From a virus: a stretch of DNA of 30,765 nt. The position numbers and the translations under genes are program-made. Where the stretch lies: positions 1 through 30,765 of IMG/VR virus record IMGVR_UViG_3300030110_001700, one strand, 5' to 3'. Below the pieces are notes generated by a model. That model did not search any database, was not told the DNA's origin, and worked only from the letters and a program-made list of their open reading frames with translations. Below, piece by piece: positions 3,422-23,357 of the stretch. The stretch's first letter is position 1. Each line of letters begins with the position of its first letter.

Positions 3422-3424
3422 ATC

Positions 3425-4246: not shown

Positions 4247-4255
4247 AATTTAATT

Positions 4256-4993
4256 TTAAGGTACATCAGCTTCAAATGCTGCTCCATTGGTTAATGTTCC
4301 ATCTACTGATGCACTTCCTTCGTCTGTAACTGTAACCCCACTTCCACCATCATTGTCTCCCATTCTCCACCAAGTTGTTGGGCTTAAACTTGAGATGTCG
4401 GTAGGTGTCCCACTATTGTAAATGTTGGTGGCATCCGTAGCCGTAAGAGTTGTTCCAGCCCAAATAGCAAACTCATCTATATTGCCTTTAAATGGGTTGT
4501 AGTGACCAGTTTTAGTTTCTCCAACATACAACTCATCTGTTGCCGTTGCAAATGCTGACCTTGTTGACATATTGTCCCCAGTAGTTTCATCTGCTCCATT
4601 TACATAAACCTTAAACTCATCAGTTGAATCCAAATCAATAGTAACTAAAATATGATTCCAACTTCCATAAGTTATGGCACTTATATCACCCCTCCCATAA
4701 TATGAACCTGAGTCAATAGAAAAGTCAATCCTCGAGCCTTCATATAAATATAGTTGACATTGAGAATTTAAAGCAGTTGAACCTTTTCCAATTTGAAAAA
4801 TAAATCTTAAAGATGGGCTTCCACTTATAGGCTTTACCCAAACTGAAAAACTTGCTTTTGTTTGCGCATTCAAAGCAGTATATACCGACTCGCTTATAAT
4901 TGTATCATCAACCCCATCAAAATCTACGCTATAAGCATTGGAAAAACTTGCAGTTGCCGTTGGAATTATTATAGCGTTTGTAGATAGATGCAT
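4256..4993 (-). CDS. LamG/concanavalin-like fibre or adhesin protein, paralogue 1 (header lost)
   Basis: 245 aa. It contains the LamG domain (VDFDGVDDTIISESVY, SFSVWVKP, YGSWNHILVTIDL, FKVYVNGAD, GNIDEFAIW) and a WWRMGDND...DGTLTNG end like the two downstream paralogues. The Gly/Trp-rich NGWGQG header of those proteins is absent and replaced by a short MHLSTNAIIIPTATASF segment, so the N-terminal attachment module may differ. It is the first of the tandem set and lies directly after the short fibre-like gene 4998-5438. Likely receptor or carbohydrate binding. Confidence 0.78.
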   Translation of the reverse strand: MHLSTNAIIIPTATASFSNAYSVDFDGVDDTIISESVYTALNAQTKASFSVWVKPISGSPSLRFIFQIGKGSTALNSQCQLYLYEGSRIDFSIDSGSYYGRGDISAITYGSWNHILVTIDLDSTDEFKVYVNGADETTGDNMSTRSAFATATDELYVGETKTGHYNPFKGNIDEFAIWAGTTLTATDATNIYNSGTPTDISSLSPTTWWRMGDNDGGSGVTVTDEGSASVDGTLTNGAAFEADVP

Positions 4994-5438: not shown

Positions 5439-5508
5439 TTTGTTTTAAGTATTTTTTTAACCTTAATATGTTTACTTTCTTTGGTTTGCTTATTCGTGTT
5501 TTTTTCAT
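5398..5508 (-). CDS. Possible small basic peptide overlapping the fibre gene start
   Basis: A 36-codon frame opens with an ATG that overlaps the stop of the connector gene (ATGA), starting MKKTRISKPKKVNILRL and remaining very basic. It overlaps the first 41 nt of 4998-5438 in another frame. The ATGA junction is used repeatedly in this genome, which is the main support. Without it, 5439-5504 would be an A-rich gap. It could be a chance frame. Confidence 0.3.
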   Translation of the reverse strand: MKKTRISKPKKVNILRLKKYLKQNGRKENKSINCER

Positions 5509-6005
5509 ATATACCAATTAGTAAAATTTACGTCAGAACTTGGTGAAACATCTGCACCAGTATTCGATGTGTATTCGGGAAATAAAGTCGAATTATTACA
5601 TAAATAGTCCACACACCTTGTTGCATAGTGTTCAGCTATTTTGCGTTCTGCTGCTATAAGCTTTTCTAATTCGTCTTGGTCTATAACCGTACTATTTTCA
5701 GCACTATGTTTATAGATGCCATTGTTTGAAATAGTCACACCACTAAATGGTAAATATTCAACCATACTATAATGCACTAACATCGGTTTAACGTAAGTTT
5801 CTACAAGCGTTTGGTAATTACCAGTTAAACTACTTCCAGCAATGTCAGATTTTAACTTTTCAAGTAAGTCCGTACCAAGATAATTCAAAATATGAATTTG
5901 TTGAGATATATATATAAATTGTATATACTTGTCAATATCTATATTGCCGTTTAAAGCCGTATAGCGTGTGATGTCGTTTCGTGATATTAAAAGAACGTTT
6001 GCCAT
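5505..6005 (-). CDS. Head-tail connector-like protein
   Basis: 166 aa, mainly helical, starting with LLISRNDITRYTALNGNID. It resembles the gp6-like/DUF6712 connector group of Bacteroidetes phages: a short protein next to the portal gene, with helix-rich segments (DKYIQFIYISQQIHILNYLG, YVKPMLVHYSMVEYLPF) and a second helical block near RKIAEHYATRCVDYLC. Such proteins form the ring joining portal and tail. It lies 7 nt after the portal fusion gene. The assignment rests on pattern and position rather than a diagnostic motif. Confidence 0.6.
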   Translation of the reverse strand: MANVLLISRNDITRYTALNGNIDIDKYIQFIYISQQIHILNYLGTDLLEKLKSDIAGSSLTGNYQTLVETYVKPMLVHYSMVEYLPFSGVTISNNGIYKHSAENSTVIDQDELEKLIAAERKIAEHYATRCVDYLCNNSTLFPEYTSNTGADVSPSSDVNFTNWYI

Positions 6006-6012
6006 TTTAATT

Positions 6013-7839: not shown

Positions 7840-8164
7840 ACATTAAAAAATCGTTAGTTGTCGTGTGTTGCGTATATACATTATGATTAACGCTATATGA
7901 ACTAACCGTTTGGTCAGTACAAAATATTTTACCTTTAAATACTACACTTGTGCCATTACGAACTTCTAAAGTGTAAAAACGACCTTCTTTTAAAGTATAA
8001 CTTGCCGTTATAGTTTCGTAGTAGTCGTTAGATGCTGAAGAAGTAATAGTTATTTGGCTTTCTACATTCGTGCTTTCATCGGTTATATATAAACCATCGT
8101 AAGTTTTAGAACGTGGTATAAACTTAAAAGTTTGTGCAGAAGTTGATGTCGTTAAGATAACCAT
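7832..8164 (-). CDS. Small structural protein between tube-like protein and portal
   Basis: 110 aa from ATG at 8164. This start is chosen because the motif TAGTTATATA ends 3 nt upstream, as at three other late genes; an earlier in-frame ATG at 8236 would run through the terminator hairpin. The protein begins MVILTTSTSAQTFKFIPRSK and is beta-rich (TITASYTLKEGRFYTLEVRN, SVVFKGKIFCTDQ), consistent with a minor virion protein. It overlaps the portal start by 8 nt. Not recognised further. Confidence 0.7.
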   Translation of the reverse strand: MVILTTSTSAQTFKFIPRSKTYDGLYITDESTNVESQITITSSASNDYYETITASYTLKEGRFYTLEVRNGTSVVFKGKIFCTDQTVSSYSVNHNVYTQHTTTNDFLMYE

Positions 8165-8167
8165 ACT

Positions 8168-8177
8168 TATATAACTA
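8168..8177 (-). promoter_or_regulatory. TAGTTATATA late-gene motif ahead of 7832-8164
   Basis: TAGTTATATA, then AGT, then ATG at 8164. It lies directly downstream of the terminator at 8201-8229, so a new transcript probably starts here. It may be a late promoter core or a translation-start signal; see the matching finding. Confidence 0.5.
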
Positions 8178-8200
8178 ATTTTCGTGTTTTTGTTTCTAAT

Positions 8201-8229
8201 AAAAAAAGGGCTTACCGAAATAAGCCCCT
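8201..8229 (-). terminator. Rho-independent terminator after tube-like gene
   Basis: On the minus strand a perfect 7-bp stem (GGGCTTA / TAAGCCC) with a 6-nt loop is followed by seven T. It lies about 33 nt past the stop of 8262-8846 and upstream of 7832-8164. The 97-bp gap 8165-8261 therefore holds this terminator, one copy of AAACACGAA (8181-8189) and the TAGTTATATA motif. Confidence 0.85.
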
Positions 8230-8261
8230 TAAACACAAGTATAAAAGTAAAGAAAAGTCTT

Positions 8262-8846
8262 TTATGAAGTTACAATTGTACAGTTACCAGTACCACCAGC
8301 ACCGTTTTGTAGTAAAAGCTTCAATTCAGTTTCGTTAGTTGCATTGATAAAGTTAGCTGGTAATTCTTCCATTCCAGTAAAGGTTAAAGAATATCCGTTA
8401 AAGTCACCAAGTGCAGAACCACTTGAAATTGTACCAGCAGTTACATCACATCCTTGATCCAAGCCCATTAAGAAGAATTGGTCACCTCTTGCGTGAATAA
8501 TTATTCTTGGTCTTCCGTAAGAAATTAATTTAATGTTTTTGGTACTTTTAACATCTTGTCTTTTAAGTTGAACGGTCAACGATTGCTCGAAAAAAGTCGT
8601 TCCATTTTCCCTACTACTATTAATAGTTTGCTCAAATGAATTTGCACCTTTAAGTTCAAACTTATAAATACTAAATGATAAACCATCACTTTGTACTGCT
8701 ACGATTTGGTCAGTATTGTCCGATGTTCCGTATTGATTTAAACTTGGAAAGTCTAAATCGCCATAGTTCACCAAATAGATTGCGTGTAATCCCGAAACTG
8801 CGTCTTTGCATTGCTCCGTTCTTCCACCTATTATATCACACGACAT
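8262..8846 (-). CDS. Putative major tail tube protein
   Basis: 194 aa. It begins CDIIGGRTEQCKDAVSGLHA and contains SFEQTINSSRENGTTFFEQS, a GRPRIIIHARGDQFFLMG stretch and GDFNGYSLTFTGMEELPA. This pattern belongs to a family I know from Bacteroidetes phages, placed near capsid genes and having a beta-rich content consistent with tail tube subunits. The gene is bracketed by hairpins (8864-8895 and 8201-8229), typical of a highly expressed structural protein. The tube role is inferred; a head decoration protein is the main alternative. Confidence 0.55.
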   Translation of the reverse strand: MSCDIIGGRTEQCKDAVSGLHAIYLVNYGDLDFPSLNQYGTSDNTDQIVAVQSDGLSFSIYKFELKGANSFEQTINSSRENGTTFFEQSLTVQLKRQDVKSTKNIKLISYGRPRIIIHARGDQFFLMGLDQGCDVTAGTISSGSALGDFNGYSLTFTGMEELPANFINATNETELKLLLQNGAGGTGNCTIVTS

Positions 8847-8863
8847 ATTTTTAGTTTTTTAAA

Positions 8864-8895
8864 GTTTATAAATAAGTGGGGTTTTTACACCCCAC
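8864..8895 (-). terminator. Hairpin after major capsid gene
   Basis: A 7-bp stem (GTGGGGT / ACCCCAC, 8876-8895) with a 6-nt loop lies 12 nt after the capsid stop on the minus strand, followed by the U-rich but interrupted stretch TTATTTAT. It is probably a partial terminator or mRNA-stabilising hairpin that separates capsid expression from the next gene. Confidence 0.6.
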
Positions 8896-8907
8896 CGTTA
8901 ATTAGTC

Positions 8908-9843
8908 TTATGCGTGGTAAAGAACTACGTCTGAACCGATAGCGTATTGAACACCAGCACTCATTCTCATAATGATTCTAACATTTTGTGAACCATCAAT
9001 CTCACTCATATCGATGTATTTAACTTCTTGGTTAACATCAGATAATAAACCACATCCAAAGAATAGGTTTGAAGATTCAGCAGCCATTGCAGTATCGTCA
9101 GCCATTCCGTTAGCAACTACAACTGGAATACCATCGAAAGATAAACTTCCGTTAGAGAACCATTGTGTTCCTTTGTTATCAGTACCATTTGCACCAACAC
9201 CAGCAGCGATGAAACCACCTAAAGCACGAACATATGCTTTTGCGATGTTTTGAGAAACATAGATTTTTAAGCTTTCGCTCCCATACAAAGATGCGGGAAT
9301 TGAGTCTACAATAGAACCTAATTTATCGATTACGTTTGCAGCAGTTACGGCAGCGTGTGAAGCAACGTCAACAACAGTTGCGTCAGCAAGTGCTAAAGTT
9401 ACTAAACCGTCAAACTGTCCCGAAGAACCTACTGCACCTTCCCAAATGTTAGTTTCGATTTTTGCAGCAGTCATTCCAGCAACGTGTGCTATCATAAAGT
9501 CTTTAAAGTTTGTTGGTAAAGATTCGAATGCAGAATAACCAGCTTGGGTTGCAATCCAATCTTGTTTGTAGTCTTTTGCACAAAGTTGAACATTTGCTTG
9601 AAGTTCTTTCAAAGTTAAAACTCTCTCAGCAACATCAACATCCATATTGTGGTCAAAGTCACAAGTAGCGTTAACTAAAACGCTTCCAGTTGTACTAATT
9701 TTTTTCATCACTCTTTTGTAGTGAATGTTAGGTAAAACAGTAATTAAACCTTTTTCAAGTGTAGGAGCAGATAGAAGTGCTGCTGCGACGTAGTCACCAG
9801 CAAATTCACCAGCATAAGTGCTTCCAGTTAGGGTATTAGCCAT
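8908..9843 (-). CDS. Major capsid protein (HK97-fold type)
   Basis: 311 aa, placed directly after the scaffold-like gene. It starts MANTLTGSTYAGEFAGDYVA and is Ala/Gly/Val-rich with a long helix (FKDFMIAHVAGMTAAKIETN) and a late ...FDGIPVVVANGM... beta segment typical of HK97-type capsid subunits of Bacteroidetes phages. The final third (IIMRMSAGVQYAIGSDVVLY) resembles the A-domain/P-domain end of such proteins. Codon use is richer in GC-ending Ala and Val codons than in its neighbours, as expected for a very highly expressed gene. It forms the icosahedral shell. Confidence 0.85.
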   Translation of the reverse strand: MANTLTGSTYAGEFAGDYVAAALLSAPTLEKGLITVLPNIHYKRVMKKISTTGSVLVNATCDFDHNMDVDVAERVLTLKELQANVQLCAKDYKQDWIATQAGYSAFESLPTNFKDFMIAHVAGMTAAKIETNIWEGAVGSSGQFDGLVTLALADATVVDVASHAAVTAANVIDKLGSIVDSIPASLYGSESLKIYVSQNIAKAYVRALGGFIAAGVGANGTDNKGTQWFSNGSLSFDGIPVVVANGMADDTAMAAESSNLFFGCGLLSDVNQEVKYIDMSEIDGSQNVRIIMRMSAGVQYAIGSDVVLYHA

Positions 9844-9861
9844 TTGTTTAAATTTTAATTA

Positions 9862-10536
9862 TTAATTATTATTATTTTTATTTGCAATTCTTTCGAATAC
9901 ACTATCCATAATAGTACGTTGTTTTTTAGGTGAAATTTTTCTACCTAAATTAACACGTTCTTTATTTTCGGGGTTGTGTACTATTGGTTTTGGTTCTTCT
10001 TCAGTAGAAAGTTCTACTTCAGTAGTTTCTTTTACTTCTTCTTTAGTTTCTACACTTTCTTCTTTCGTGTTTTCAACTGAAGTTTCAACTGAACTTAATT
10101 TTAAACCTTCAAGTTCTTTCTTTAAAGTTTCGTTTTCTTCTTTAAGCTTTTCGATTTCACTAAAGAACGATTCCTTTGTAATTGATTCGATAACCTTTTT
10201 AGGTGTTTTCGTTTCTTCAGCGTATTCCTCTTTTTCTTCAGACTTCGCTTCTTCTTCAACTACTTCTTCGGTTACTTCTTCTTCTTTAGCTTCTTTGATT
10301 TCTTCGATAAGACCTTCTTCTTTAACAACTACCATACGACCATCTTCAAGTGTATAAGATCCGATGGGCATTGCTACTTTTCCGTCTTCGGTTACTATCA
10401 TTATTTCAGCACCAGCTTCAAAGTCACTTTCTACGATTGTTAAACCGTCTTCAAGTTTCATTTGTGCAAGTCTTACTACTTCGCTTTCAACACCTAAAAG
10501 TGTTTTTATCTTGGTTAAAATTTCAGTTGTATTCAT
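9862..10536 (-). CDS. Scaffold-like acidic capsid assembly protein
   Basis: 224 aa and extremely Glu/Lys-rich. An N-terminal domain (residues 1-77: KTLLGVE, LAQMKLEDG, GSYTLEDGRMVVVKEEG) precedes a long acidic coiled-coil-like stretch (about 78-175) and a conserved-looking basic C-terminus (VNLGRKISPKKQRTIMDSVF). Directly upstream of the capsid gene, this fits an assembly scaffold: a negatively charged, mostly helical filler with a capsid-binding basic tail. It may instead be a capsid-associated structural protein; I know the N-terminal pattern from other flavobacterial phages. Confidence 0.65.
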   Translation of the reverse strand: MNTTEILTKIKTLLGVESEVVRLAQMKLEDGLTIVESDFEAGAEIMIVTEDGKVAMPIGSYTLEDGRMVVVKEEGLIEEIKEAKEEEVTEEVVEEEAKSEEKEEYAEETKTPKKVIESITKESFFSEIEKLKEENETLKKELEGLKLSSVETSVENTKEESVETKEEVKETTEVELSTEEEPKPIVHNPENKERVNLGRKISPKKQRTIMDSVFERIANKNNNN

Positions 10537-10553
10537 TTTTTTATTTTATTTTA

Positions 10554-10949
10554 TTACTTTGTATTTGAAACAATACTATCAATATTGTCTTGGATTTGAC
10601 TTGTAATGTCTAATATATCGTAAAAGTCTTTGGATGCTTGTGAATTTTTTACATCTAAACCTAATTCTTTAGCTGCTTTTTCAAATTTATCCATCATTTT
10701 ATTTGCTCTTGTTTCAATAATTTTAGGAAATTTCTTATTTGTAAGCCAAAATGATGATGCTTCTTCTAATTTAGCAGCAGCTTTTTTTACTTGTTCGTCG
10801 GCTTTATTTGACTTTGCTAAATCTTTTAAAAGAGATTTTTTTAGTTTTGCCATATCGTCAATTAAACCTAACTCTACTTTATGTGTTTCAAGTTCGGTTT
10901 TTTCTTCTTTAGAAAATAAACGATTGTAAACTGCTTTTTGTGTGTTCAT
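10554..10949 (-). CDS. Helical hypothetical protein in head module
   Basis: 131 aa, almost entirely predicted helix with heptad-like charge and leucine patterns (LIDDMAKLKKSLLKDLAKSN, VKKAAAKLEEAS). It is not recognised. It sits between the XkdF protease/Cys-rich pair and the scaffold-like gene, so a role in capsid assembly is possible. The start at 10949 is supported by TAGTTATATA ending 3 nt upstream. Confidence 0.75.
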   Translation of the reverse strand: MNTQKAVYNRLFSKEEKTELETHKVELGLIDDMAKLKKSLLKDLAKSNKADEQVKKAAAKLEEASSFWLTNKKFPKIIETRANKMMDKFEKAAKELGLDVKNSQASKDFYDILDITSQIQDNIDSIVSNTK

Positions 10950-10952
10950 AAC

Positions 10953-10962
10953 TATATAACTA
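10953..10962 (-). promoter_or_regulatory. TAGTTATATA late-gene motif ahead of 10554-10949
   Basis: TAGTTATATA, then GTT, then ATG at 10949. Same motif and same 3-nt spacing as at 8164, 12226 and 19853. The leader upstream is A/T-rich with no Shine-Dalgarno sequence. Confidence 0.5.
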
Positions 10963-10989
10963 TTTAAATTTAATTTGTTGCGTTTAAGG

Positions 10990-11151
10990 TTAAATTTTAC
11001 CTATTCCTTGTGCGTGTAAAGTACCATCGCAGCAATCTACGTGGTAAGTATTGTCATCGCATAAACAACCTCTTTTACTTCCTTTTGGTGAAGTCTTACT
11101 TGGTGTTGCGTTTTTTCTTTTTTTTACGTTTTTTCTTGTACTTTTTTTCAT
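10990..11151 (-). CDS. Small Cys-rich protein overlapping the protease 3' end
   Basis: 53 aa in the +1 frame relative to the protease, overlapping its last 56 nt. It begins MKKSTRKNVKKRKNATPSK (basic) and ends with a compact Cys motif: RGCLCDDNTYHVDCCDGTLHA followed by QGIG. The C-x-C...CC-x-G pattern ending in AQGIG is one I recognise as recurring in Bacteroidetes phage and host proteins; it probably binds a metal or forms disulfides. It fills what would otherwise be a 146-bp gap. It could be a separate gene or, less likely, a frameshift extension of the protease, whose A-rich 3' end has A8 and A6 runs. Confidence 0.65.
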   Translation of the reverse strand: MKKSTRKNVKKRKNATPSKTSPKGSKRGCLCDDNTYHVDCCDGTLHAQGIGKI

Positions 11152-12226
11152 AGTCTTCAATCATTTTTTTAAGTTCTTCAACTATTTGCTTGTCACGTTC
11201 TTGTTGTGTAGCTTCTAATTTACCAAGTTGTTTAAGTTTGCTTTCTGACCAACGTAATCCAGCTAAACCACCCCATAGTAAATAAGATATATTACCACAG
11301 TCGTTTGTATCAGCGTCATCGTAATAAGTTTTAGCACGGCTTAAATAAGAATACATTCTTTGGATTGTTTCTTCACTTATTGGTTCGCCTTTTGCTAATT
11401 GTTGTGCCCTAACTTTTCCAGTTTGTGTTGCACACTTATTGTTGTTTTTTTCGTTTAGTTCAATACCACGTTTTGCGTTGTTGCTTACTGCTTGTGGGTA
11501 GTCGCTAAAACTTTCTAATTCTTCTTTGTTCGTGTGTTGTTCGCAAGGCATAAACCAAGTTTTACCTTCAAAGTCGTGTGTATGAAACCCTTCGCAACCT
11601 ACTTCTTTTGCAACTTGTAAAGCTTTTTCTTTTGTACTATATGCCGTTCGGTCATCTATTATTGCAAGTTCATCGTCTATTACAACCGACTTAAATTCTT
11701 GTTTACTTGCTTCTACTTTTTCTGCAAAATAACCTTCAATAGAAAAGCCTTTTATTTCACCGTCTTTTACTTTTTTCCAAACGTCATCGTTGTCAACTTT
11801 CATTGCAATCATCCAAGTTCCTTCGGGTACATTAAATTCGTATAAAGCACTTTTATCTTTTTCAGTTGATTCCACGATCCAACTTTCGACGACGGTCATA
11901 CCAGCTATTTTTTTTGCGTGTTCTATTGTTGCGTTGCTTTGGTTTGACTTCTTTAAGAATAGTTGACTTGCTTTTCTTATTGTTGATTTGGAAAACCAAA
12001 TATAGTATTCTTCATTCGTCTTTTCGTTGCGTCGGTATATTTGTTTTTTAGGTACTAAGGCAGCACCCATTAAAATACGCTTTTCTTCGTTTATAGTTTT
12101 TAATTGTATTTCGTGTTTTTTAAGTGCTATCCAGTTTTCTTCTATTGCTGGATTTTCAACTACACTAACTGCATCGACTCCGCTATTGATGTCATCTTCG
12201 TTTAAAACAAGTTCAATGATTTTCAT
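11096..12226 (-). CDS. XkdF-like prohead serine protease with C-terminal extra domain
   Basis: 376 aa. Residues 1-170 match the XkdF phage protease family: VDAVSVVENPAIEENW, a candidate catalytic His103 (IEHAKKIAGM), VVESWIVE, GTWMIAMKVDNDDVW and a candidate nucleophile Ser162 in KGFSIEGYF. The family cleaves scaffold or capsid precursors during head maturation. A second region (about 245-340: AKRGIELNEKNNNKCATQTG, TIQRMYSYLSRA, DCGNISYLLWGG) is a domain I know fused to phage proteases of this group. The C-terminus is a Lys/Arg run (YKKKRKKKKKRNTK). The start is supported by TAGTTATATA 3 nt upstream. Confidence 0.82.
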   Translation of the reverse strand: MKIIELVLNEDDINSGVDAVSVVENPAIEENWIALKKHEIQLKTINEEKRILMGAALVPKKQIYRRNEKTNEEYYIWFSKSTIRKASQLFLKKSNQSNATIEHAKKIAGMTVVESWIVESTEKDKSALYEFNVPEGTWMIAMKVDNDDVWKKVKDGEIKGFSIEGYFAEKVEASKQEFKSVVIDDELAIIDDRTAYSTKEKALQVAKEVGCEGFHTHDFEGKTWFMPCEQHTNKEELESFSDYPQAVSNNAKRGIELNEKNNNKCATQTGKVRAQQLAKGEPISEETIQRMYSYLSRAKTYYDDADTNDCGNISYLLWGGLAGLRWSESKLKQLGKLEATQQERDKQIVEELKKMIEDYEKKYKKKRKKKKKRNTK

Positions 12227-12229
12227 ATC

Positions 12230-12239
12230 TATATAACTA
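12230..12239 (-). promoter_or_regulatory. TAGTTATATA late-gene motif ahead of protease
   Basis: TAGTTATATA, then GAT, then ATG at 12226. It sits in the 20-nt gap after the tape measure stop and marks the boundary between tail and head modules. Confidence 0.5.
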
Positions 12240-12246
12240 AAAAAAT

Positions 12247-14463
12247 TTATATTGTTGCGTTTTGTATTTTATTACGGTCTAAACTTTGTGCCGTTGTAAT
12301 ATCACCACTAACTACAAAAGCTTGTGTTGGTTGCATTTGTAATTCGGCAAGTTGGTTTATTCCACTATCGCCTACAACGTTAAAACTCGGTTGTGGCATA
12401 GAACCACCACCACCAGCACCACCACCGCCACCAGTATCTACTTCAGATGCACCACCGCCACCAAATTTTGTTTTTGCTATTTTAGCAATGTTAACTGCTG
12501 CAAACGCACCAGCAAGACCAGCTTGGATAAATGGATACGCTGGCATTACTGCCGTGATTGGTGACTTTTGTGCAGTTGTATAAGCGTTCATTGCTCCTTG
12601 TATTCCAGTCGAAGTTGCTTGTGCTATTTTAACCGCTTTATCTATTTGAAAATTTCTTTTTGATTGTTCTTCGTTTTCTGCATTAAATAGTTCGTTGATA
12701 CTACTAATAAGATTTAAAGTATTGTTTGCCATTTCAAACTTGGCATTTTGTAAAGCTAAATCGTTTTCTTTTTTCTTGTCGTTAGATGCTTTATTTGCGT
12801 CTACGTCTTCTTTTCGGTATTTGGCATTTATTTTTGCTAAATCCTTGTTTAATGCTTCTTGTAGTGCTTTTTCAAGTTCTGCATTACCTTCAGCAAGTTC
12901 AAATTTTGCTTCGTAAGATTCTACTAAATTTGCTATTTCTTTTTCTTCTTGTGTCGAATTTAATTCGTCTAAAAGTTTAAATTGCTTGTCTTGTAATTCT
13001 ATTTCTTTTTGTTGTTGCAACTTTTCTGCTTCAAGTTCTTCTGCTCTAAATTTGTCGTCAATGTCTTTTATAGATTTTTTCAATTTTCTATAAGCTGCAT
13101 TTGCTAAAAGAGCAAATTGTTTGTCATTAATTTTTTTATCACGTAGTCTAATTTTAAAATCTTCTTTTTCTCTTTTAAAAGTTTCTTTTGCTAAATCTAT
13201 CTCTTTTTGTTCTGATTCTTTTCTTAAGGCAAATGTTTTGTCAAATATTTCTCGTTCAATAGCAAGTAAATCATCTTTTCTTTGGTTAGCAGTTTGTCGA
13301 GAAGATTTAGCTGATGCTTTCTGTTGCTTGTTAAATTTAACAGTCATTAACTTTCTTTGGTCTTGCAAATTTTGTAAACTTGTTTCAGCATCTGTAACCG
13401 ACTTTTGTGCTGCATTTGTAATAGAATTAATGTCAAAAACTGCATCCGAAATCATATCAGAAATCCTATCCATTTCAACCCATTTTAATTTTCTTGCTAT
13501 ATAATTATAAGCATCTATAATGGCATCCAATGGCTTTAACAAAGTTGTAATAATTAAATCAAAAATCTTCTTATTCCTTTTTGCTCTTTCTATATCGTTT
13601 TTCTTTTCAAATTTTGCAATTTCAACTTTTTGTTTACCAAGTGCTATTTCTTGGTCTAACTGTTTAAGTTTAACTCTATAAATTTCTTCAGCAGTAGCAC
13701 CTTCTGCTTCCATTATTTGAAGTTTTATATCAGTTTGTTTTTTTTGTGCTTCAAGTAATGTAACTCCTTCTTCGTAATCTTCATTTAACTTTTTAGCTTT
13801 ACTTGAACCTGCATCTATAAACGCAGTAATATCTTTCCAATAAGCTACAATTAAACCTAAAGCAACTACGGCTGCACCTATACCTGTTGCAATTAAACCT
13901 TTTCTAATACCACTTAATGCAGTTTTTGCAGCCATTCCCATAGCTTTAAAACTTTTAGCACCTTCACGTAGTCCTTCAAGACCTTGTGTTATTGCCATAG
14001 CACTTTGTACTTTTAAAAGCGTTGCTTCAAGTTCTTCGGATTCAGTACCAAATAAAGCCATAGAACCTTGAACTAAAGCGAAACCACTTGCAGCACCTTG
14101 AATAGCACCACCAAGCTTTTGTGACATAGTAGTAGCAGCAGCATCCACAACCATATCGGTGTCCATTTGTACCTTTCGATACTTTCCAACCTCACCTAAC
14201 AAGTCGTTAAATTCTTTACTTGCCGTGTCACCAGCTAAAGCCATTTGGTAAAGACGGTCTTCCATCTCACCCATTTGTGCCGTTAATGGTTTTACTTCAC
14301 CATAAACTTCTTCAAATGAAGCGTGTAAATCTTTGTTCGTCTTTTGAACCTTTTTTTCGGCTTGGTTTAAATTGTCAACACTTTGCCCTAAATCGTCAAT
14401 GCCTTTTTTAGCTTGTTCGGCATTCGTGTTTACTTCAAGTTCTATTGTTTTTTTAGTTGCCAT
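12247..14463 (-). CDS. Tail tape measure protein
   Basis: 738 aa. It has a coiled-coil N-terminus (EVNTNAEQAKKGIDDLG, VDNLNQAEKKVQK), a hydrophobic segment near residues 186-207 (GLIATGIGAAVVALGLIVAYW), a very long charged helical middle (about 230-590), an Ala-rich second hydrophobic patch (PAYPFIQAGLAGAFAAVNIA), a Gly-rich linker and a short globular end. This layout is diagnostic of tape measure proteins, which set tail length and form the DNA channel during ejection. At 738 aa it predicts a tail of roughly 100 nm by the usual length rule (inference). Its start overlaps the stop of 14463-14615 (TAATG). Confidence 0.88.
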   Translation of the reverse strand: MATKKTIELEVNTNAEQAKKGIDDLGQSVDNLNQAEKKVQKTNKDLHASFEEVYGEVKPLTAQMGEMEDRLYQMALAGDTASKEFNDLLGEVGKYRKVQMDTDMVVDAAATTMSQKLGGAIQGAASGFALVQGSMALFGTESEELEATLLKVQSAMAITQGLEGLREGAKSFKAMGMAAKTALSGIRKGLIATGIGAAVVALGLIVAYWKDITAFIDAGSSKAKKLNEDYEEGVTLLEAQKKQTDIKLQIMEAEGATAEEIYRVKLKQLDQEIALGKQKVEIAKFEKKNDIERAKRNKKIFDLIITTLLKPLDAIIDAYNYIARKLKWVEMDRISDMISDAVFDINSITNAAQKSVTDAETSLQNLQDQRKLMTVKFNKQQKASAKSSRQTANQRKDDLLAIEREIFDKTFALRKESEQKEIDLAKETFKREKEDFKIRLRDKKINDKQFALLANAAYRKLKKSIKDIDDKFRAEELEAEKLQQQKEIELQDKQFKLLDELNSTQEEKEIANLVESYEAKFELAEGNAELEKALQEALNKDLAKINAKYRKEDVDANKASNDKKKENDLALQNAKFEMANNTLNLISSINELFNAENEEQSKRNFQIDKAVKIAQATSTGIQGAMNAYTTAQKSPITAVMPAYPFIQAGLAGAFAAVNIAKIAKTKFGGGGASEVDTGGGGGAGGGGSMPQPSFNVVGDSGINQLAELQMQPTQAFVVSGDITTAQSLDRNKIQNATI

Positions 14464-14615
14464 TATTTCTTTTTAAAGTACAATTTTCTTTTTTCTTGTT
14501 TGTATATTTTCTTTACATTACTTTCTAACTTGTACTTTCCTTTTGCTATTTCTACATTCTCACTTATTCCGAAGTGGTCATCTAATTTTAGCATATCTAT
14601 TATGTTTTTTATCAT
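14463..14615 (-). CDS. Small hypothetical protein between tail-tip protein and tape measure
   Basis: 50 aa, basic: begins MIKNIIDMLKLDDHFG and ends QEKRKLYFKKK. Both ends form TAATG overlaps, with the stop of 14615-16978 and with the start of the tape measure. This tight fit is strong support for a real gene. Not recognised; a minor tail-assembly role is possible from position. Confidence 0.7.
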   Translation of the reverse strand: MIKNIIDMLKLDDHFGISENVEIAKGKYKLESNVKKIYKQEKRKLYFKKK

Positions 14616-16978
14616 TACGGTTGTTGTATTATTATCGAAGTGTCGTTAGTTGCACCGTTGCAATAAGTGTGTGTTACATTTAGTGTTATACTTTGTGGTG
14701 CAGATTCTTCGGTTTCTATTCTAAAAAAGTTTTCCGTGTTTACAAAGTTTGATCCATCTTCGGTAACTATTAAATCTTGCGTGTTACTATTTGCTGGAAC
14801 ACAAACTTCTACTATTTGACTACTTGTAATTGTGCTTGGTGTGATAGTTACACCACCAGTTGTTGTGCTTATCGTAGCAGAACAAACACCGTTTAATAAA
14901 TTAACTGGTACGTCTACACAATTAGATGTTGGCTTACTATGAATTATTGTTAACGGTGAAAGTGGTCTAAAGTCTAAAAGTAAAGTCATATCAACATCGC
15001 CACTTGTGATATTTGACTTCATTTCGTTTATAACATATCTTTTATCTCGAATAATTACACGGTCATTTAACTTTAAATTAGTCAACATTGAAATAGGTAA
15101 TTGTGTTTTTACCTTTATCAATCTATTTTGCAAGTCATATAAATTTTGTAAATAATTAAAATAATATGTTGCATATAAAGTGTCGGCTATTGGTGTCAAT
15201 AAAAACGTACTTCGGTCAGCATTAAAGTTTAACGTGTAGTTTGTAATTCCGTTTACTTGTAAGTCTTGACCAAATGGCATATAATCGCTAACCGTAACTT
15301 GTGCCGTTCCGTTGTAAAATTTAAAATCCGTGCTTTGCTTGTCGTACATATACATCAAACAAGGTTTAGGAACATAAGAAGCTAAATTGTCATCTAAAGC
15401 ATAAGCTACTTGCGTGGTTGTTCCAGTAAACTTTTGTCCCATTAAGTTTTCAAATGGTAGTTGAACGGTAAATTCACCACCATCGTATGTAAATGATTGT
15501 TCCGTGTTTCCGTATTCACGATAAAACAAAGCTTTGAATTGTTGGTTTAATACGCTTTTGCTTTCTTGGTATTTAAAAGATATTCTTTTATACAATGGCA
15601 CACGGTCAACATCAATGCTTTTAACGTCGGTGTATTTTGTTATGTCGTATAAATCGCCAAGTGTGTACCACGTTTCCAAAGTTTCTATTTCGTAAGTGTC
15701 TGCAACCGTACCAAAACAAGTTAGATTAAACATTTTTAACACACCACTAAAAAAATCAGCTACTTTTATTTCGGGTACTAATGATCCAAGACTTGAATTT
15801 CCAGTTAAGGTTTGTGTTGCACCCGTTATAGTGAATTCATCAACGGGTACAATAGTAGTACCTACCGTTGCTTCCCAAAAACAATTTGTTGTTGTGTCTA
15901 TGTTAATTTGGTTTGCTGCCCTCATTTCAAGAACTATGCTTTCGTCTAAACCTGCTGCGTTTTGGTCATATACTATTTGATGCGTTGCTGTTCCTTGTCC
16001 TTGAATAGTGTGCGAAAATACACCGTTTCTATGTACGTCAATATAGTAGTCAGTTGAAGCGTCACTTGGTACTACTGTCGTGTTTATTACAAATCTATAA
16101 TATTGTGAACCTACTACGTTAGAATAATTGTATGTTATTGTGTTTGTTGTTAAGTCAACACCACTATTGTTTGGTGCAGTTCCAGCAGCATACACTACAC
16201 TTGCAAAGTCAACTTCTTTAGCACCAGTTATAAATGTATTTGATTTCGTGTTTTTCGCCCAAAGAAAACATTTCTTAAACCTTTCATCATTTAAAAAAGT
16301 ACCAGTAAAAGTTATGCCATAATGCGTAGCAATTACTTCAAATAGTTTTTTAATTTTTACTGCTGGAAAAAGTTCGTTGAATAATATTCGACCACCACCA
16401 GTTGTTATGTCGTTAGAACCACCACCAGTTATTTGCCAATTCCTATCTGAACTAATTAAAGGGTAACGCACATCGTAGTCGGTTGTGTCATCCGTTATTC
16501 TATTAAAAACTTCTACACCAGTATAAGTGTGGTCTAAAGAACTTAAATCAACATCGCTTAACATATCTTCGCCAAACTTATCTTTTAAGCTTGTGATGTC
16601 ACCATAAAAAGTTAACGTATAGCTTTCGGGTTTACCATCTTTTAAGTTTGCTTTTTCAAGTTGTATTTTACCAGTTCTAAATGGTGTTAGGTTTATGTCA
16701 AGTTGTGCGTCTTTTCTTATGTTTACATTGAACGTAAATTGTGTTGGTGAAGTTGGTGTTATGTTAGTCGGGTTATATCCGTAAACATCACTATTGTAAA
16801 AGTGTTGAAATACTTTATTATTTGTTTTGGTTGCTGGTACGGTAAACGATTGGCTAAAGTCGGAATAAACCTTGCTAATGTCTTGGATGTTTTGAACACT
16901 TGAATTTACTTGTATTTGTTCGTCATCAAACAAGTCAAGCTTTACCCCTTCAACATATATTTGTACGCTTCTTTTCAT
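14615..16978 (-). CDS. Large tail protein, tail-tip/baseplate-like
   Basis: 787 aa, beta-rich and Thr/Asn-rich. It begins RSVQIYVEGVKLDLFDDE and contains ISKVYSDFSQSFTVPATKTN, a pattern I know from large structural proteins next to the tape measure in flavobacterial phages. Motifs such as LFPAVKIKKLFEVIATHYGI and a repeated-looking beta C-terminus suggest a multi-domain hub with host-facing appendages. It is translated just before the tape measure rather than after it, so the module order is unusual. Tail-tip function is inferred from size, composition and position. Confidence 0.65.
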   Translation of the reverse strand: MKRSVQIYVEGVKLDLFDDEQIQVNSSVQNIQDISKVYSDFSQSFTVPATKTNNKVFQHFYNSDVYGYNPTNITPTSPTQFTFNVNIRKDAQLDINLTPFRTGKIQLEKANLKDGKPESYTLTFYGDITSLKDKFGEDMLSDVDLSSLDHTYTGVEVFNRITDDTTDYDVRYPLISSDRNWQITGGGSNDITTGGGRILFNELFPAVKIKKLFEVIATHYGITFTGTFLNDERFKKCFLWAKNTKSNTFITGAKEVDFASVVYAAGTAPNNSGVDLTTNTITYNYSNVVGSQYYRFVINTTVVPSDASTDYYIDVHRNGVFSHTIQGQGTATHQIVYDQNAAGLDESIVLEMRAANQINIDTTTNCFWEATVGTTIVPVDEFTITGATQTLTGNSSLGSLVPEIKVADFFSGVLKMFNLTCFGTVADTYEIETLETWYTLGDLYDITKYTDVKSIDVDRVPLYKRISFKYQESKSVLNQQFKALFYREYGNTEQSFTYDGGEFTVQLPFENLMGQKFTGTTTQVAYALDDNLASYVPKPCLMYMYDKQSTDFKFYNGTAQVTVSDYMPFGQDLQVNGITNYTLNFNADRSTFLLTPIADTLYATYYFNYLQNLYDLQNRLIKVKTQLPISMLTNLKLNDRVIIRDKRYVINEMKSNITSGDVDMTLLLDFRPLSPLTIIHSKPTSNCVDVPVNLLNGVCSATISTTTGGVTITPSTITSSQIVEVCVPANSNTQDLIVTEDGSNFVNTENFFRIETEESAPQSITLNVTHTYCNGATNDTSIIIQQP

Positions 16979-18115
16979 TTATATTACGCTATTAATCATA
17001 TCAAAACCATACTTGAATGTGATGTTGTAATTTATGTTGCCTTGTGCATTTACACCTTTTAGCTTTTCTATGCTTTTAGTGTCTACGGTTACGGGTAAAC
17101 TATCCACAAGAACTTTTTCACTTAACATTATTTGTTGTATTGTTTCAGAATAACTTGGTGCAACGATTCCAGTATTACAAGTAATTGTTTCTTGTCCGTT
17201 GTGGTTAAATGCTTGTCTTTGTCCCTCAAGTGTAGAATAGCTTAATGAATTACTTTGCATTAAATTGTAAACGCTTTCTTTCGTGTTTATGTTATTTTTA
17301 GATGCCTTATAAAACCATTCACGTTGCCAATACCCCATTTGGTTGACAAAGTCTACTAAAATAGGTGTGTACTTTGGTTCGCATTTTGGTCTAAAATACC
17401 AAGTGCCGTAAAGTGTCGGTGAACCAGCACCAAGATTGCTCCAAACTTCCAACTTGTTACCGTCAGCATAGTAATCATACCATACTGTTGGCACATCGTA
17501 TAAATCAGCAGATGCAAATGGGTCAGTTATAACTTGCGTTGCACCACTTACTAAATTTGTGTATTTTAAATCTACTAAAGTACCAGCACCTAAAAAACCC
17601 ATCAATCCAGCACGTTGCGATTCGGTTGTTGATGGTGTATGTGTACTTTGATAATGATAGTAATATGTGCCTTGTGGTAATGAAGCCGTTTGATCCGTTG
17701 TAAATTCTAAACTTGTTAATTGTGGGTTAGCACCTTCCGAATAATATCCGTAACCATCCATACAATAGTATGTTGTGGTATCTAACAAAGTATAGTTTCC
17801 AGATGTTGTTTCTTTGTATCGCTTTAAATCAAGCTTAACCATTTGGTTGTAATTGTTAGCAGCAACACCAGTAGAAACTCCCGAACCAATTGCCGTTTGT
17901 CTTGTAGTAAATTTTAAATATTCCCTTGTGTAAGGTGAAACATCGTAATACATCTTTAAATTGTTAGATGCTGGTATAAGCTTCTGAATAGTGTATTGTG
18001 GGTTTGTTGGTACACTTGTACCCGAATAGTAATAAAATAGTTCAAGCTTTGAACCTACAACCGAAGATTCGTCTACTTCTATAATGTATGGTGAACGTGC
18101 AAATATTTTATTCAT
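16979..18115 (-). CDS. Minor tail protein (tail-tip-associated)
   Basis: 378 aa, rich in Tyr, Thr and Ser with many beta-like segments (KLELFYYYSGTSVP, YYDVSPYTREYLKF, TYYYHYQSTHTP). No catalytic motif was seen. It lies 0 nt upstream of the 787-aa tail protein and overlaps the gp10-like gene at its start by one base, so the three probably form a unit. It is likely a distal tail component contacting the host or the hub; I cannot name a family. Confidence 0.6.
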   Translation of the reverse strand: MNKIFARSPYIIEVDESSVVGSKLELFYYYSGTSVPTNPQYTIQKLIPASNNLKMYYDVSPYTREYLKFTTRQTAIGSGVSTGVAANNYNQMVKLDLKRYKETTSGNYTLLDTTTYYCMDGYGYYSEGANPQLTSLEFTTDQTASLPQGTYYYHYQSTHTPSTTESQRAGLMGFLGAGTLVDLKYTNLVSGATQVITDPFASADLYDVPTVWYDYYADGNKLEVWSNLGAGSPTLYGTWYFRPKCEPKYTPILVDFVNQMGYWQREWFYKASKNNINTKESVYNLMQSNSLSYSTLEGQRQAFNHNGQETITCNTGIVAPSYSETIQQIMLSEKVLVDSLPVTVDTKSIEKLKGVNAQGNINYNITFKYGFDMINSVI

Positions 18116-18639
18116 TATGTAGTTTTTAAGTTTTCTTCTATTATTGAAACAAGTAAATTTTCCATATCTAAACCGTACTTTTCTATTAGTTCGTTTGGTA
18201 GTTTTTCAAAAGCACTATTAAATGGTTTGGTAAAAAACATACTTGGTTTTATTCCGTGATGAAAAACGCTTCTTGCAATTAAAAAGTTTAACGACTTTCG
18301 TTTTAATAACCTACCTTTTTTATCTCGTGGTGCTAAACCTTTTCTTATTGTCCACTTGTCAAATACTTTGCTTGGTGGCATCTTACTTTTGTAGCTAAAG
18401 TTAGAAAGTGACTTACCACTTTTTACACCTCTTACACCTTGATCCTGAAACCATCCGTAATTATCTAATTGAAAAAATACACGAATAGAATTTGGCATAA
18501 TTTTTACTTCGCCTTTTATACTGTCGCTTAAATTACCACTTGCGTTTTTATTAGTTCTTTGCAAATTATCTTTTGCAGCTTGTACTACTCGTTGTTCAAA
18601 CTCTTGCAATGCTTCCAATAAAAAGTTAGTTTCAGACAT
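18115..18639 (-). CDS. HK97 gp10-like tail completion protein
   Basis: 174 aa. The opening helix (LLEALQEFEQRVVQAAKDNL) followed by SGNLSDSIKGEVKIMPNSIR, DNYGWFQDQGVRG and a Lys-rich loop matches the HK97-gp10/minor tail family of head-tail joining proteins, as does the size. Such proteins cap the tail or connector side during joining. It overlaps the next upstream gene by 8 nt. The family pattern (NLxxSI...YGWFQDxGVxG) is clear enough for fair confidence. Confidence 0.72.
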   Translation of the reverse strand: MSETNFLLEALQEFEQRVVQAAKDNLQRTNKNASGNLSDSIKGEVKIMPNSIRVFFQLDNYGWFQDQGVRGVKSGKSLSNFSYKSKMPPSKVFDKWTIRKGLAPRDKKGRLLKRKSLNFLIARSVFHHGIKPSMFFTKPFNSAFEKLPNELIEKYGLDMENLLVSIIEENLKTT

Positions 18640-19087
18640 CGCAAACGGTCATTACGTTGGGTGTGTTTATATTTACGGTCATAGTCCAACCAGCAAGTTT
18701 GTTTTCGAACCTATCTACAAATATTTCTAAATTAGGTGTGCCGTCTACTTGGTAATTGTCATCGTATAAATTACCACGTCTTAATTTTTCGTAAAGTCTA
18801 TTAAGAATATTTAGTTGTGTGTTTAGTACATCTTGTTCGTTGTCGTTGCCTCTAAACTTGTCAGCAGTTTCGTCTTTTGATACGTCTACAACATCCATAC
18901 TTAAAATGCTAATATTGTATTGTATCACATTATCAACAAAGGTTGCACTATTTACTATTATGTGGCATAGTGGAAATATAGTTTGCTTTGATAAATCAAC
19001 GTCAAAGATGTCACCACTTGATACGGTGTTAACTAACGCATCGTTGTTTAGTTCGGTTTGTAGCTTGGTTAGAATTTCGTAGTACAT
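18632..19087 (-). CDS. Tail terminator-like protein
   Basis: 151 aa. The N-terminal helix (YYEILTKLQTELNNDALVNT) followed by alternating beta strands (FPLCHIIVNSATFVDNVIQYNISILSMDVVD), an internal helix (LNTQLNILNRLYEKLRRG) and a final WTMTVNINTPN strand gives the size and layout of tail terminator proteins (gpU-like), which cap the growing tail. It follows the tail chaperone gene with a TAATG overlap at 19087 and precedes the gp10-like gene. Assignment by fold pattern and neighbours. Confidence 0.55.
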   Translation of the reverse strand: MYYEILTKLQTELNNDALVNTVSSGDIFDVDLSKQTIFPLCHIIVNSATFVDNVIQYNISILSMDVVDVSKDETADKFRGNDNEQDVLNTQLNILNRLYEKLRRGNLYDDNYQVDGTPNLEIFVDRFENKLAGWTMTVNINTPNVMTVCDV

Positions 19088-19365
19088 TATTTTATTTTAT
19101 TTAGTTGTCGCTGCATTTCACTATGTTCAATATCTCTTTTTTGCTTTTCAAAAGTAAGCCACACAAAGCAGTCGTGTAATGGTAGTTTGGTGACATTTCG
19201 AAAGTTTTCAAGTTTTCCTTCAGCGATTGCATATATGCTTTGATACCATCCCCATTGTTTCCCAAATTGAGTTCTTGCTGAAAAGTCGTCATCATTTCCT
19301 TGCTCGTCATCTGCACTTCTAAATATTGAATTGTACTGTTCAGCAATTCGCTTGTTAAAACGCAA
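19087..19365 (-). CDS. Tail assembly chaperone -1 frame extension (gpT-like), expressed by frameshift
   Basis: A 92-codon frame without an ATG near its beginning (the first codon after the slip is TTG). An in-frame TAA lies just before the T9 run, so entry is expected only by a -1 slip from the overlapping gene. It contains KQWGWYQSIYAIAEGK and VTKLPLHDCFVWLTFEKQ. This is the pattern (WGWYQSIY..A.G.....VT.LPLH...L.FEK) I know from the second chaperone product in flavobacterial phages. The fusion would be 163 + 92 = 255 aa. It ends with TAATG coupling to the tail terminator gene. In lambda the equivalent is gpGT, which recruits the tape measure and tube. Confidence 0.7.
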   Translation of the reverse strand: MRFNKRIAEQYNSIFRSADDEQGNDDDFSARTQFGKQWGWYQSIYAIAEGKLENFRNVTKLPLHDCFVWLTFEKQKRDIEHSEMQRQLNKIK

Positions 19366-19853
19366 AAAAAAACTTTAGCAGCAAGTGCTACACCAAGTGG
19401 TGCAAATTTCATTACTTCGGCATAGTTAGCAGAACTTTCGTATTCTTCTATTAAGTATTTGTCTTTCTTCTTTTCAATTACTGGTCGATATAAAACCGCC
19501 ATTGCTTTGTGTAGAGTATCAATAGATTTTAAATTAGTTTCTAAATCTATGTATTCACCAAAAGTAATATCTTCTAAATTTGGAATAAAGCCAAACTCAT
19601 AATCGTTAAGTGTAAATGTTCTTTGAAACTTTGGTTGTTCTTTAAATACTTTTGATAAGTGTATTGTGATGTCTTGAACATCTTGCCACTTTACTTGTAG
19701 AACATCACGTAGTCTTAAACCACAAAATATTTCTACCATCTTTTGGCATAAAAATTCTTCGTCATTCGTCTTTTCGTAGGTTGCCATAAACTTTTGGTAG
19801 CTACCTAATGGTATTTCGTTTATGTCGGTTGGTAGTAAAATTTCAGCTTCCAT
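19101..19853 (-). CDS. Tail assembly chaperone, frame-0 product (gpG-like)
   Basis: 250 aa. The N-terminal part (LPTDINEIPLGSYQKFMATY, EEFLCQKMVEIFCGL, FIPNLEDITFGEYIDLETNL, MAVLYRPVIEKKKDKYLIEE) matches a chaperone family I know from flavobacterial phages. At Val161-Phe163 the mRNA carries G_UUU_UUU_UUU. Beyond it frame 0 stays open for 87 more codons, with a still family-like segment (TSELLNSTIQYLEVQ, NNGDGIKAYMQSLKENL), while the -1 frame is also open and also family-like. The start is supported by TAGTTATATA 3 nt upstream. It acts in tail assembly with the tape measure. Confidence 0.75.
   Translation of the reverse strand: MEAEILLPTDINEIPLGSYQKFMATYEKTNDEEFLCQKMVEIFCGLRLRDVLQVKWQDVQDITIHLSKVFKEQPKFQRTFTLNDYEFGFIPNLEDITFGEYIDLETNLKSIDTLHKAMAVLYRPVIEKKKDKYLIEEYESSANYAEVMKFAPLGVALAAKVFFCVLTSELLNSTIQYLEVQMTSKEMMTTFQQELNLGNNGDGIKAYMQSLKENLKTFEMSPNYHYTTALCGLLLKSKKEILNIVKCSDN
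19365..19371 (-). other. Programmed -1 ribosomal frameshift slip site (U_UUU_UUU)
   Basis: In the chaperone mRNA codons 161-163 read GTT TTT TTT, followed by TGC. Zero-frame codons on T_TTT_TTT can re-pair perfectly after a -1 slip, giving TTG CGT TTT and entering the -1 frame. The T run is nine bases (19364-19372), so a sequencing indel must also be considered. Confidence 0.7.
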
Positions 19854-19856
19854 ATC

Positions 19857-19866
19857 TATATAACTA
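19857..19866 (-). promoter_or_regulatory. TAGTTATATA late-gene motif ahead of tail chaperone
   Basis: TAGTTATATA, then GAT, then ATG at 19853, in the 30-nt gap after the large terminase. The same arrangement occurs at 12226. An A-rich stretch lies upstream. Confidence 0.5.
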
Positions 19867-19883
19867 TTTTTTGTGTTTTTGTA

Positions 19884-21038
19884 TTACCTTATGTGATAAG
19901 TTCCATAATTCTTATTGCTTAAGTTTTCCATTTCGTGATATCTTAAAGCATCTATTAAATGGTCTTGCCCACCTTTAGGTTTGTTTAATTGTTTACCAGT
20001 CTTGTCCGTGTCCCAAACATAACCCCTTAATTCTTTTATTAAATTTAAGCTTGAAGATGTAACTAAATATTCTTGGTTTTGCATAAGTTGTATTCCGAAT
20101 AAAATACTATCCTTGCCTTTTGTACAACCTTTTATTTGATAACCAAGCCTTCTTATTTCTTCTATACTTTTTGGTTCAGCACTATCCGCAATTACTAATT
20201 CGTGTTTTGGTAGCTTCTTTGCTATCTCGGCATTCACTAATTTATTTTGGTAGCATATTTCGTGTACTATTCTTTTGCCGTTCCATAAGTGAATAGAACA
20301 AATTGCCGTTGGATCTGCGGAATAACCAAAGTCAAGCCCATAGCCAATTAGTTTAGCATCGCTTGGCACTTCATCTATTTGCTTCCAATTGTCAAACACT
20401 ACACCTTGCAAGTTACCGATTTCACCAAGTCCATAAACTGACCACCAGTTTTTCCAGTATGCAGATGTCTTTGCTTTTTCCTTTGCCTTTTCTATTTCGA
20501 AGATTATGTTTTCATCAAGTGCTTCGTTATCTAAATAGTTAAGCTTTAAAAATTGTGCGTTGCTATCTTGCTTTAGTTCGTGTGCCCAAAATTCATTAGA
20601 TGGGTTAAAGTCTAAATATACTTCGTCTTTTGTTCGTATAGCAAGTTCGTTGTACATTTCAAAAGTTACATTGTTACATTCGTTTATATATAGTATATCA
20701 CGCCTTGCACCACGTAATCTGGAACTATCGTCAGCAGAAAAGAACTCTATAAATGATCCATTAGTAAATTGATATTTTAACAAACTCCTGTTGAAAAGTT
20801 GTTCACGGTATCGGTTTAAACCTTTAAGTAGTTTTATGCAGTCACGTATGCAACCACGTCTTAAGTGTGGTATTGATTCACTTACTACGCTTATTTCAAG
20901 GTTTGGTAATTTAATTGCTTTGTCTATTAACAATATTAAAATGGAAATAGTCTTACCAGCAGATGTGCCACCTTGAATTATTTTGATTCGTTTTTCTAAC
21001 CTACTTATCTTGTTTACTGCCGTTGTTCTTTGAAACAT
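19884..21038 (-). CDS. terL: Terminase large subunit
   Basis: 384 aa. ATPase: Walker A GGTSAGKT (23-30), Walker B DILYINE with catalytic Glu120, and a coupling-like FFSADDSSRLRG (99-110). Nuclease: Asp236 in GLDFGYSADPTA, Asp285 in VIADSAEP and the DHLIDALRY segment (Asp359/Asp363). It packages DNA into the prohead through the portal and cuts concatemers. It resembles the short PBSX/XtmB-like group. It overlaps TerS by 38 nt. It is followed by tail rather than portal genes, which is unusual. Confidence 0.95.
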   Translation of the reverse strand: MFQRTTAVNKISRLEKRIKIIQGGTSAGKTISILILLIDKAIKLPNLEISVVSESIPHLRRGCIRDCIKLLKGLNRYREQLFNRSLLKYQFTNGSFIEFFSADDSSRLRGARRDILYINECNNVTFEMYNELAIRTKDEVYLDFNPSNEFWAHELKQDSNAQFLKLNYLDNEALDENIIFEIEKAKEKAKTSAYWKNWWSVYGLGEIGNLQGVVFDNWKQIDEVPSDAKLIGYGLDFGYSADPTAICSIHLWNGKRIVHEICYQNKLVNAEIAKKLPKHELVIADSAEPKSIEEIRRLGYQIKGCTKGKDSILFGIQLMQNQEYLVTSSSLNLIKELRGYVWDTDKTGKQLNKPKGGQDHLIDALRYHEMENLSNKNYGTYHIR

Positions 21039-21351
21039 CTATGTCGGGAAATATTGGTTGCTCAAATATTGTTTGGTCAATTTGTTGTATAGGCGCACCA
21101 TATCCACTATCCATTAAAGCTTTGTATGCATTTACATCACCTTTCTTTGCTTTTTTAATTAGTGCTAAAGTGATTGCATCTTCTTGACTTAAAAATTCAT
21201 CTTCTCCAGTTATAGGGTTCTTAAACTTTTGATTAGTTTCTAACCAAAGCTTTGCTATCGTGCTTCTATTTTTTGAACCTTTTGGTCTTCCGTTAGGGTT
21301 TCCGCTTTCGCCTTTTTTCCAAGCTGGTCTTAAATTTTCTTCATTTGCCAT
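21001..21351 (-). CDS. terS: Terminase small subunit-like protein (DUF5681 type)
   Basis: 116 aa. The N-terminus WKKGESGNPNGRPKGSKNRS is the DUF5681 signature, known from proteins encoded just before TerL in many phages. It is followed by a helical segment (TIAKLWLETNQKF) and a C-terminal part that includes KAKKGDVNAYKALMDSGYG, similar to helical oligomerisation regions. It would recognise phage DNA for packaging. It overlaps TerL by 38 nt. The leader holds TAGTTATATA, here 25 nt before the ATG rather than 3. Confidence 0.8.
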   Translation of the reverse strand: MANEENLRPAWKKGESGNPNGRPKGSKNRSTIAKLWLETNQKFKNPITGEDEFLSQEDAITLALIKKAKKGDVNAYKALMDSGYGAPIQQIDQTIFEQPIFPDIDVSKNNGSKQDK

Positions 21352-23352: not shown

Positions 23353-23357
23353 TTATC

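Follow-up and report, generated by a model that had tools for sequence, protein, structure and literature searches.

A single late gene of a tailed phage very probably encodes two proteins that have a common N-terminal domain and differ in their C-terminal ends, both of which appear to be under selection in the DNA they share. The window analysed here is the whole of the 30,765-base virus record IMGVR_UViG_3300030110_001700. Nearly all of its genes lie on the minus strand, and the gene set is that of a flavobacterial-type tailed phage, including terminase, head maturation protease, portal and a tape measure candidate. Most decoding of the gene would remain in frame 0 and yield a protein of about 250 aa. 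A fraction would shift to the -1 frame at a run of nine thymines (T9) and yield a fusion, likely the less abundant product, of the N-terminal domain with a conserved, mostly helical C-terminal domain. The nucleotides after the slip site would then encode both C-terminal ends, and selection would keep both. Comparative analysis shows that the slip site and the -1 protein are conserved and that selection acts in the two frames.

Table 1. Features of the two-frame gene and its borders in the window.
Feature	Position	Strand	Description
Frame-0 product, 250 aa	19101..19853	-	N-terminal domain (residues 1 to ~160) and 87-codon tail past the slip
T9 run	19364..19372	-	Contains the -1 slippery heptamer U_UUU_UUU (19371-19365)
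-1 frame tail, 92 aa/codons	19087..19365	-	Conserved WGWY and LTFEKQK motifs; putative frameshift product
Dual-coded overlap, 262 nt	19104..19365	-	Both frames open and, by substitution counts, under selection
-1 frame TAA	19375..19377	-	Just 5' of the slip in the window
TAATG	19085..19089	-	-1 stop runs into the start of the following gene (18632..19087)

The gene directly follows the gene of the large terminase subunit (Table 1). Past codon 160 the window reads GTT TTT TTT TGC, with a T run of exactly nine and the heptamer in the phase T_TTT_TTT, which confirms the coordinates and frames that an earlier, sequence-only reading of the window had given for the slippery site. That both frames stay open past the slip to nearly the same end, as the same reading had noted, is also correct: the 87 codons of frame 0 end at the stop at 19103-19101 and the 92 codons of the -1 frame at 19089-19087, frame 0 ending 14 nt earlier. 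At the junction with the next gene most relatives have ATGA; the window, like some of the other sequences, has TAATG.

Scans of IMG/VR with the -1 tail matched at least 263 and at least 553 stretches, and scans with the N-terminal domain matched at least 591 and 177 stretches. The homologue set comprises 269 distinct sequences kept from the fetched loci. Many of these were fetched by the N-terminal domain only, and are therefore free of bias towards the tails. T9 is kept in 261 of the 263 distinct homologues with a located slip site. The two exceptions, T8 in L065 and T10 in L128, are single cases and both break the frame; they are probably homopolymer indel errors in assembly, or alternatively rare natural variants. 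In L295, one more relative, the run is T10, with an unchanged heptamer and an unbroken -1 frame. The Phe pair at the slip site is always encoded as TTT TTT, whereas TTT makes up 77% of the upstream Phe codons, and the codon following the slip site differs among relatives (TGG, TGC, TAC, TAT). Conservation of the -1 tail extends to all clades (Phe at position 3, Arg at position 6; WGWY and LTFEKQK motifs in the main clades). When bacterial genomes were searched with the -1 profile, the one match was a contig of a Flavobacterium metagenome-assembled genome (MAG), and because this contig alone matched we infer that the phages carrying the gene are mainly lytic. Among cultured phages, the single annotated pair of relatives is Nonlabens phages P12024L and P12024S.

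Slippage at T9 appears to be the sole convincing way into the -1 frame. The shift itself is probably made by the ribosome, a reading for which the perfect heptamer and the precedent of G/GT speak, and both ribosome and polymerase could act. An in-frame heptamer of the X_XXY_YYZ type is present and is conserved as U_UUU_UUU. Slippage of RNA polymerase on T9, which would add an extra U to part of the mRNA and so bring the -1 tail into frame, is a possible alternative that we hold tentatively. It draws on the length of the run and on the precedent of mxiE: in many bacteria, selection against slippage becomes apparent once a run of T or A reaches nine, and Shigella mxiE joins two overlapping frames by insertion of U (PMC1088944). 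Polymerase slippage would also account for T9 being nearly universal even though the heptamer permits C in the third position and the next codon varies. A further point in its favour is that no conserved nested RNA fold was found 3' of the slip over 0-60, 0-90 or 0-120 nt (consensus energy -0.39 kcal/mol); folds of single sequences after the slip showed no agreement between relatives. Frameshift stimulators are not always required. The V/I/L and W/C/Y codons on either side of the two Phe codons could account for the outermost T at each end of the run, which counts against the polymerase reading. The AT-rich window, moreover, has three more runs of nine A or T, at 21796-21804, 23365-23373 and 30095-30103, two of them intergenic and one close to where a 98-aa ORF begins, so that T9 alone is not diagnostic.

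A route into the -1 frame without any shift would be an independent start, at the TTG after the T run or at an internal ATG. The sequence-only reading had pointed out that no ATG lies near the opening of the -1 frame. This is true of the window, and none of 259 relatives has ATG among the first ten -1 codons, though the first -1 codon is TTG in the window and in 171 of the 259. GenBank, too, gives the tail of P12024L as a separate gene starting from ATG. Against such a start, the -1 frame of 88 of the 259 relatives opens with TTA, and none of its codons 2-15 is ATG, GTG or TTG. Conservation at F, R and L/Y positions also extends over the residues that separate the slip from the ATG given for P12024L in GenBank. 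Independent initiation is thus very improbable, and the annotated start of P12024L_41 is probably wrong, since conserved -1 residues precede its ATG. Read-through from upstream in the -1 frame is excluded in the window by the TAA at 19377-19375. The placing of a -1 stop just before the slip, which the sequence-only reading had stressed, holds in the window but is not general: the nearest upstream -1 stop is at most 30 nt away in 104 of the 259 relatives, and at most 120 nt away in 254. With independent starts unlikely and upstream -1 stops near, slippage at T9 remains. The frameshifting that had been proposed as the route to the -1 frame is supported by the 88 relatives lacking a start codon in codons 1-15.

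To follow selection in the two frames, substitutions were reconstructed by parsimony on a tree of 151 sequences and sorted according to what they do in each of the two frames; rates are relative to that of synonymous frame-0 changes upstream, taken as neutral (rate of 1). Changes that are silent in the -1 frame and alter frame 0 occur at a rate of 0.17 at 0-75 nt past the slip (bootstrap 0.13-0.22), 0.34 at 75-180 nt (0.29-0.38) and 0.55 at 180-245 nt (0.49-0.63). Once frame 0 has stopped, silent -1 changes occur at a rate of 0.78, and of 1.10 in the Inhavirus-like clade. The reciprocal class, silent in frame 0 and altering the -1 frame, has rates of 0.32, 0.10 and 0.13 in the same three intervals. 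Doubly silent changes past the first 30 nt occur at or above the neutral rate, mostly at 1.2-1.9, and this excludes a low mutation rate or a general constraint at the nucleotide level there. Over 0-240 nt, about 108 changes that are silent in the -1 frame and create a frame-0 stop were expected and 11 were observed; these counts do not depend on where frame 0 stops in descendants. In another, independent clade, of 66 sequences and with a shorter overlap, changes silent in the -1 frame and altering frame 0 occur at 0.16 at 0-75 nt and 0.62 from 75 nt to the stop, and the -1 silent rate past the frame-0 stop is 0.92. The two-frame substitution pattern is repeated in this second clade, and the dual coding is taken to be real.

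These counts indicate that purifying selection acts in both frames over most of the overlap, with frame 0 dominating the first ~75 nt past the slip and the -1 frame dominating the rest. The end of the frame-0 tail appears weakly constrained except for staying open. The comparison of homologues in both frames, which the sequence-only reading had suggested as a check, finds the -1 frame conserved throughout and the changes that alter frame 0 but are silent in -1 suppressed. The dual coding it had proposed is sustained over most of the overlap, with the correction that only over the first ~75 nt is frame 0 strongly constrained, the constraint declining towards its end.

Frame 0 might instead be held open merely so that unshifted ribosomes end near the next start, through coupling or the avoidance of polarity, in which case its sequence would be irrelevant. 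The geometry fits: frame 0 of the long clade stops 8-35 nt short of the -1 stop, and that stop overlaps the next start as ATGA or TAATG. Stop-creating silent changes are also suppressed more than missense changes, and constraint is weak in the last third of the frame-0 tail. Coupling, however, predicts normal rates of frame-0 missense change, and up to 180 nt past the slip the observed rates are 3- to 6-fold lower than that. In the mid-length clades, moreover, frame 0 is still constrained though it ends ~60-80 nt before the -1 end. Coupling is therefore largely refuted for 0-180 nt, and improbable as the general explanation of the open frame.

The length of the open frame 0 is also more than chance would give. 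Past the slip, it stays open for 160-265 nt in every clade except the Inhavirus-like one, which consists of the Nonlabens phages and their relatives; there it stops after 49-76 nt, and the long overlap is thus clade-specific. Conservation of one frame only, which the sequence-only reading had counted against dual coding, is met with in that clade past the early frame-0 stop, and most clades keep both frames. On a tree of 119 tips the length classes of frame 0 change 4 times, against a mean of 39.8 after shuffling, and the length is a stable clade character. Chance openness was assessed by keeping the -1 protein fixed, resampling its codons and measuring the open length of frame 0. The median open length under resampling is ~19 nt, and the probability of frame 0 being open as far as in the window is 0.0013-0.0015. 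In most long-overlap relatives it is below 3e-4; it reaches 0.09 in L190, the most divergent main-clade member tested, so that the strength of this evidence differs between single genomes. That selection acts on the -1 frame alone, and frame 0 is open as a side effect of the -1 amino acid composition or of a conserved RNA element, is scarcely credible: WGWY and LTFEKQK of the -1 frame are indeed the most conserved feature and the Inhavirus-like clade loses frame 0 early, but the probability of openness given the -1 protein is 0.0015 in the window and lower in most relatives, stops make up 15% of the frame-0 codons beyond the frame-0 stop in the mid-length clades, an RNA element is at odds with class-specific suppression beside free doubly silent sites and with the lack of conserved RNA structure over 0-120 nt, and the substitution counts refute this explanation, barring artefacts.

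The distribution of lengths also suggests how the overlap may have arisen. The tree was rooted at its midpoint, for drawing only, and the Inhavirus-like clade is then the outgroup to all others. Under this root we infer that frame 0 grew in few changes from 49-76 to 160-211 and then to 232-265 nt. One subclade, including L126 and L033, has an intermediate frame-0 length inside the long group, which represents a reversal or a separate gain. The -1 domain is found on both sides of the root, and this would make the frame-0 tail the younger layer. In the simplest history, frame 0 would have lengthened step by step across a -1 domain that was already there, as successive stops were lost. Taken as a whole, the reading in which slippage at T9 chooses between two functional C-terminal ends encoded in the same ~190-265 nt, the frame-0 end having been overprinted by successive stop loss in steps still readable from the three length classes of living clades, is on balance somewhat favoured.

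The predicted structures differ in quality along the two products. AlphaFold2 models the N-terminal domain (residues 1 to ~160) with confidence, block means being mostly 84-94; the frame-0 tail is modelled poorly, with pLDDT of ~51-76, and the -1 tail is predicted as mostly helical with a mean of 72. In a viral structure library, the frame-0 model and the model of the -1 tail share the single-frame matches A0A516L611, A0A516L5A8 and A0A6J5N0W0, all from uncultured phages. Such sharing would be expected if the N-terminal and -1 domains are fused without a shift elsewhere, and is best treated as a lead from models whose aligned target regions are not visible. A single-frame fusion was not found among the fetched loci, and the shared structure matches are the sole hint of one.

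The sequence-only reading had seen parts of known tail chaperones in both tails. This resemblance was not supported: there is no match to known chaperones in Pfam, NCBIfam, PDB or lambda G, and the gene adjoins the terminase. A PDB fold search with the frame-0 model likewise gave no match. The frame-0 protein of the window matches phrog_32199, a family of unknown function (E 2.5e-15). Weak matches were obtained to phrog_166 'tail protein' in three relatives (E 5e-4), with no match in the window's genome, and to a 'tail assembly chaperone' in BFVD (probability 0.47). Weak PHROG integrase matches (E 9e-4) lie at residues 29-84, in the N-terminal domain of the window protein, and most relatives do not share them. 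The integrase families phrog_216 and phrog_7244 each match one of 26 relatives, gene context lends no support, and the integrase identity was put down to chance. As for position, the gene adjoins the large terminase subunit upstream, and four ORFs separate it from the tape-measure candidate at 12247-14463 (PHROG tape-measure matches, E 4e-4 to 2e-3). It shares with genes of the G/GT type a -1 slippery site joining two overlapping ORFs. It does not lie after a major tail gene and immediately upstream of the tape measure, as those genes do, and its frame 0 does not stop soon past the slip (262 nt; 160-265 nt in most relatives). The architecture makes a tail-assembly role akin to that of G/GT the likeliest function, with moderate confidence. 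As the homology tests fail and the position is unlike that in lambda and HK97, the gene is described as working like G/GT and is not classed as a member.

The order of modules around the gene is unusual. In the minus-strand stretch 5505..21351 the terminase is followed by the frameshift gene and then by tail-type genes and the tape measure candidate; later come the head protease, a scaffold-like gene and a capsid candidate, with the portal last (phrog_33693, 6013-7839). At 2618..4993, also on the minus strand, three adjacent ORFs of 267, 273 and 245 aa share the motif VDFDGVDD. They resemble a LamG/concanavalin-like lectin domain repeated in tandem, and are probably receptor-binding or tail-tip proteins.

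Phage tail frameshift genes normally spend almost no sequence on two frames. Here, hundreds of environmental phages seem to keep both C-termini of one gene selected over most of the alternative tail, and they provide a deep natural data set on two proteins sharing DNA and on a new protein end growing over an old one. Standard annotation can miss the -1 product, which in the Nonlabens phages is given as a separate gene. The T9 site makes the choice between ribosomal and polymerase slippage directly testable. A description of such dual coding in a tail-type phage gene was not found in the openly accessible literature that was searched.

Among known systems, the gene resembles lambda G/GT (HK97 gp13/gp14) in having two ORFs, a -1 shift and two proteins with a common N-terminus, and in lying in the late structural region of a tailed phage. 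Unlike lambda G, to which it has no detectable homology, it adjoins the terminase and is four genes away from the tape-measure candidate. In the window the slip-to-stop distance of frame 0 is 262 nt; for phage frameshift genes in general, a survey reports means of 26 nt (SEA-PHAGES) and 36 nt (Xu set) (PMC10885494). The Nonlabens phages P12024L and P12024S (Inhavirus; P12024L_40/_41) have a homologous N-terminal domain, T9, the -1 tail and the position after the terminase; unlike in the window, their frame 0 ends 49-76 nt past the slip, and they are annotated as having two hypothetical genes. In JQ823123 (P12024L, 23946-24640) and JQ823122 (P12024S, 23136-23830) the frame-0 and -1 parts are entered as two genes with an ATGA overlap. 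In Shigella, mxiEa and mxiEb are likewise overlapping frames joined over a long T run, but mxiE is a cellular regulator, and dual selection on its overlap is not described in the accessible part of the source (PMC1088944). An alternative tail lying wholly over another coding frame and reached by frameshifting is also known from RNA viruses, for example as the arterivirus nsp2 TF (PMC5009743); these are RNA viruses of animals, whereas the present gene belongs to a dsDNA phage, and its alternative ends would be the C-termini of one short protein.
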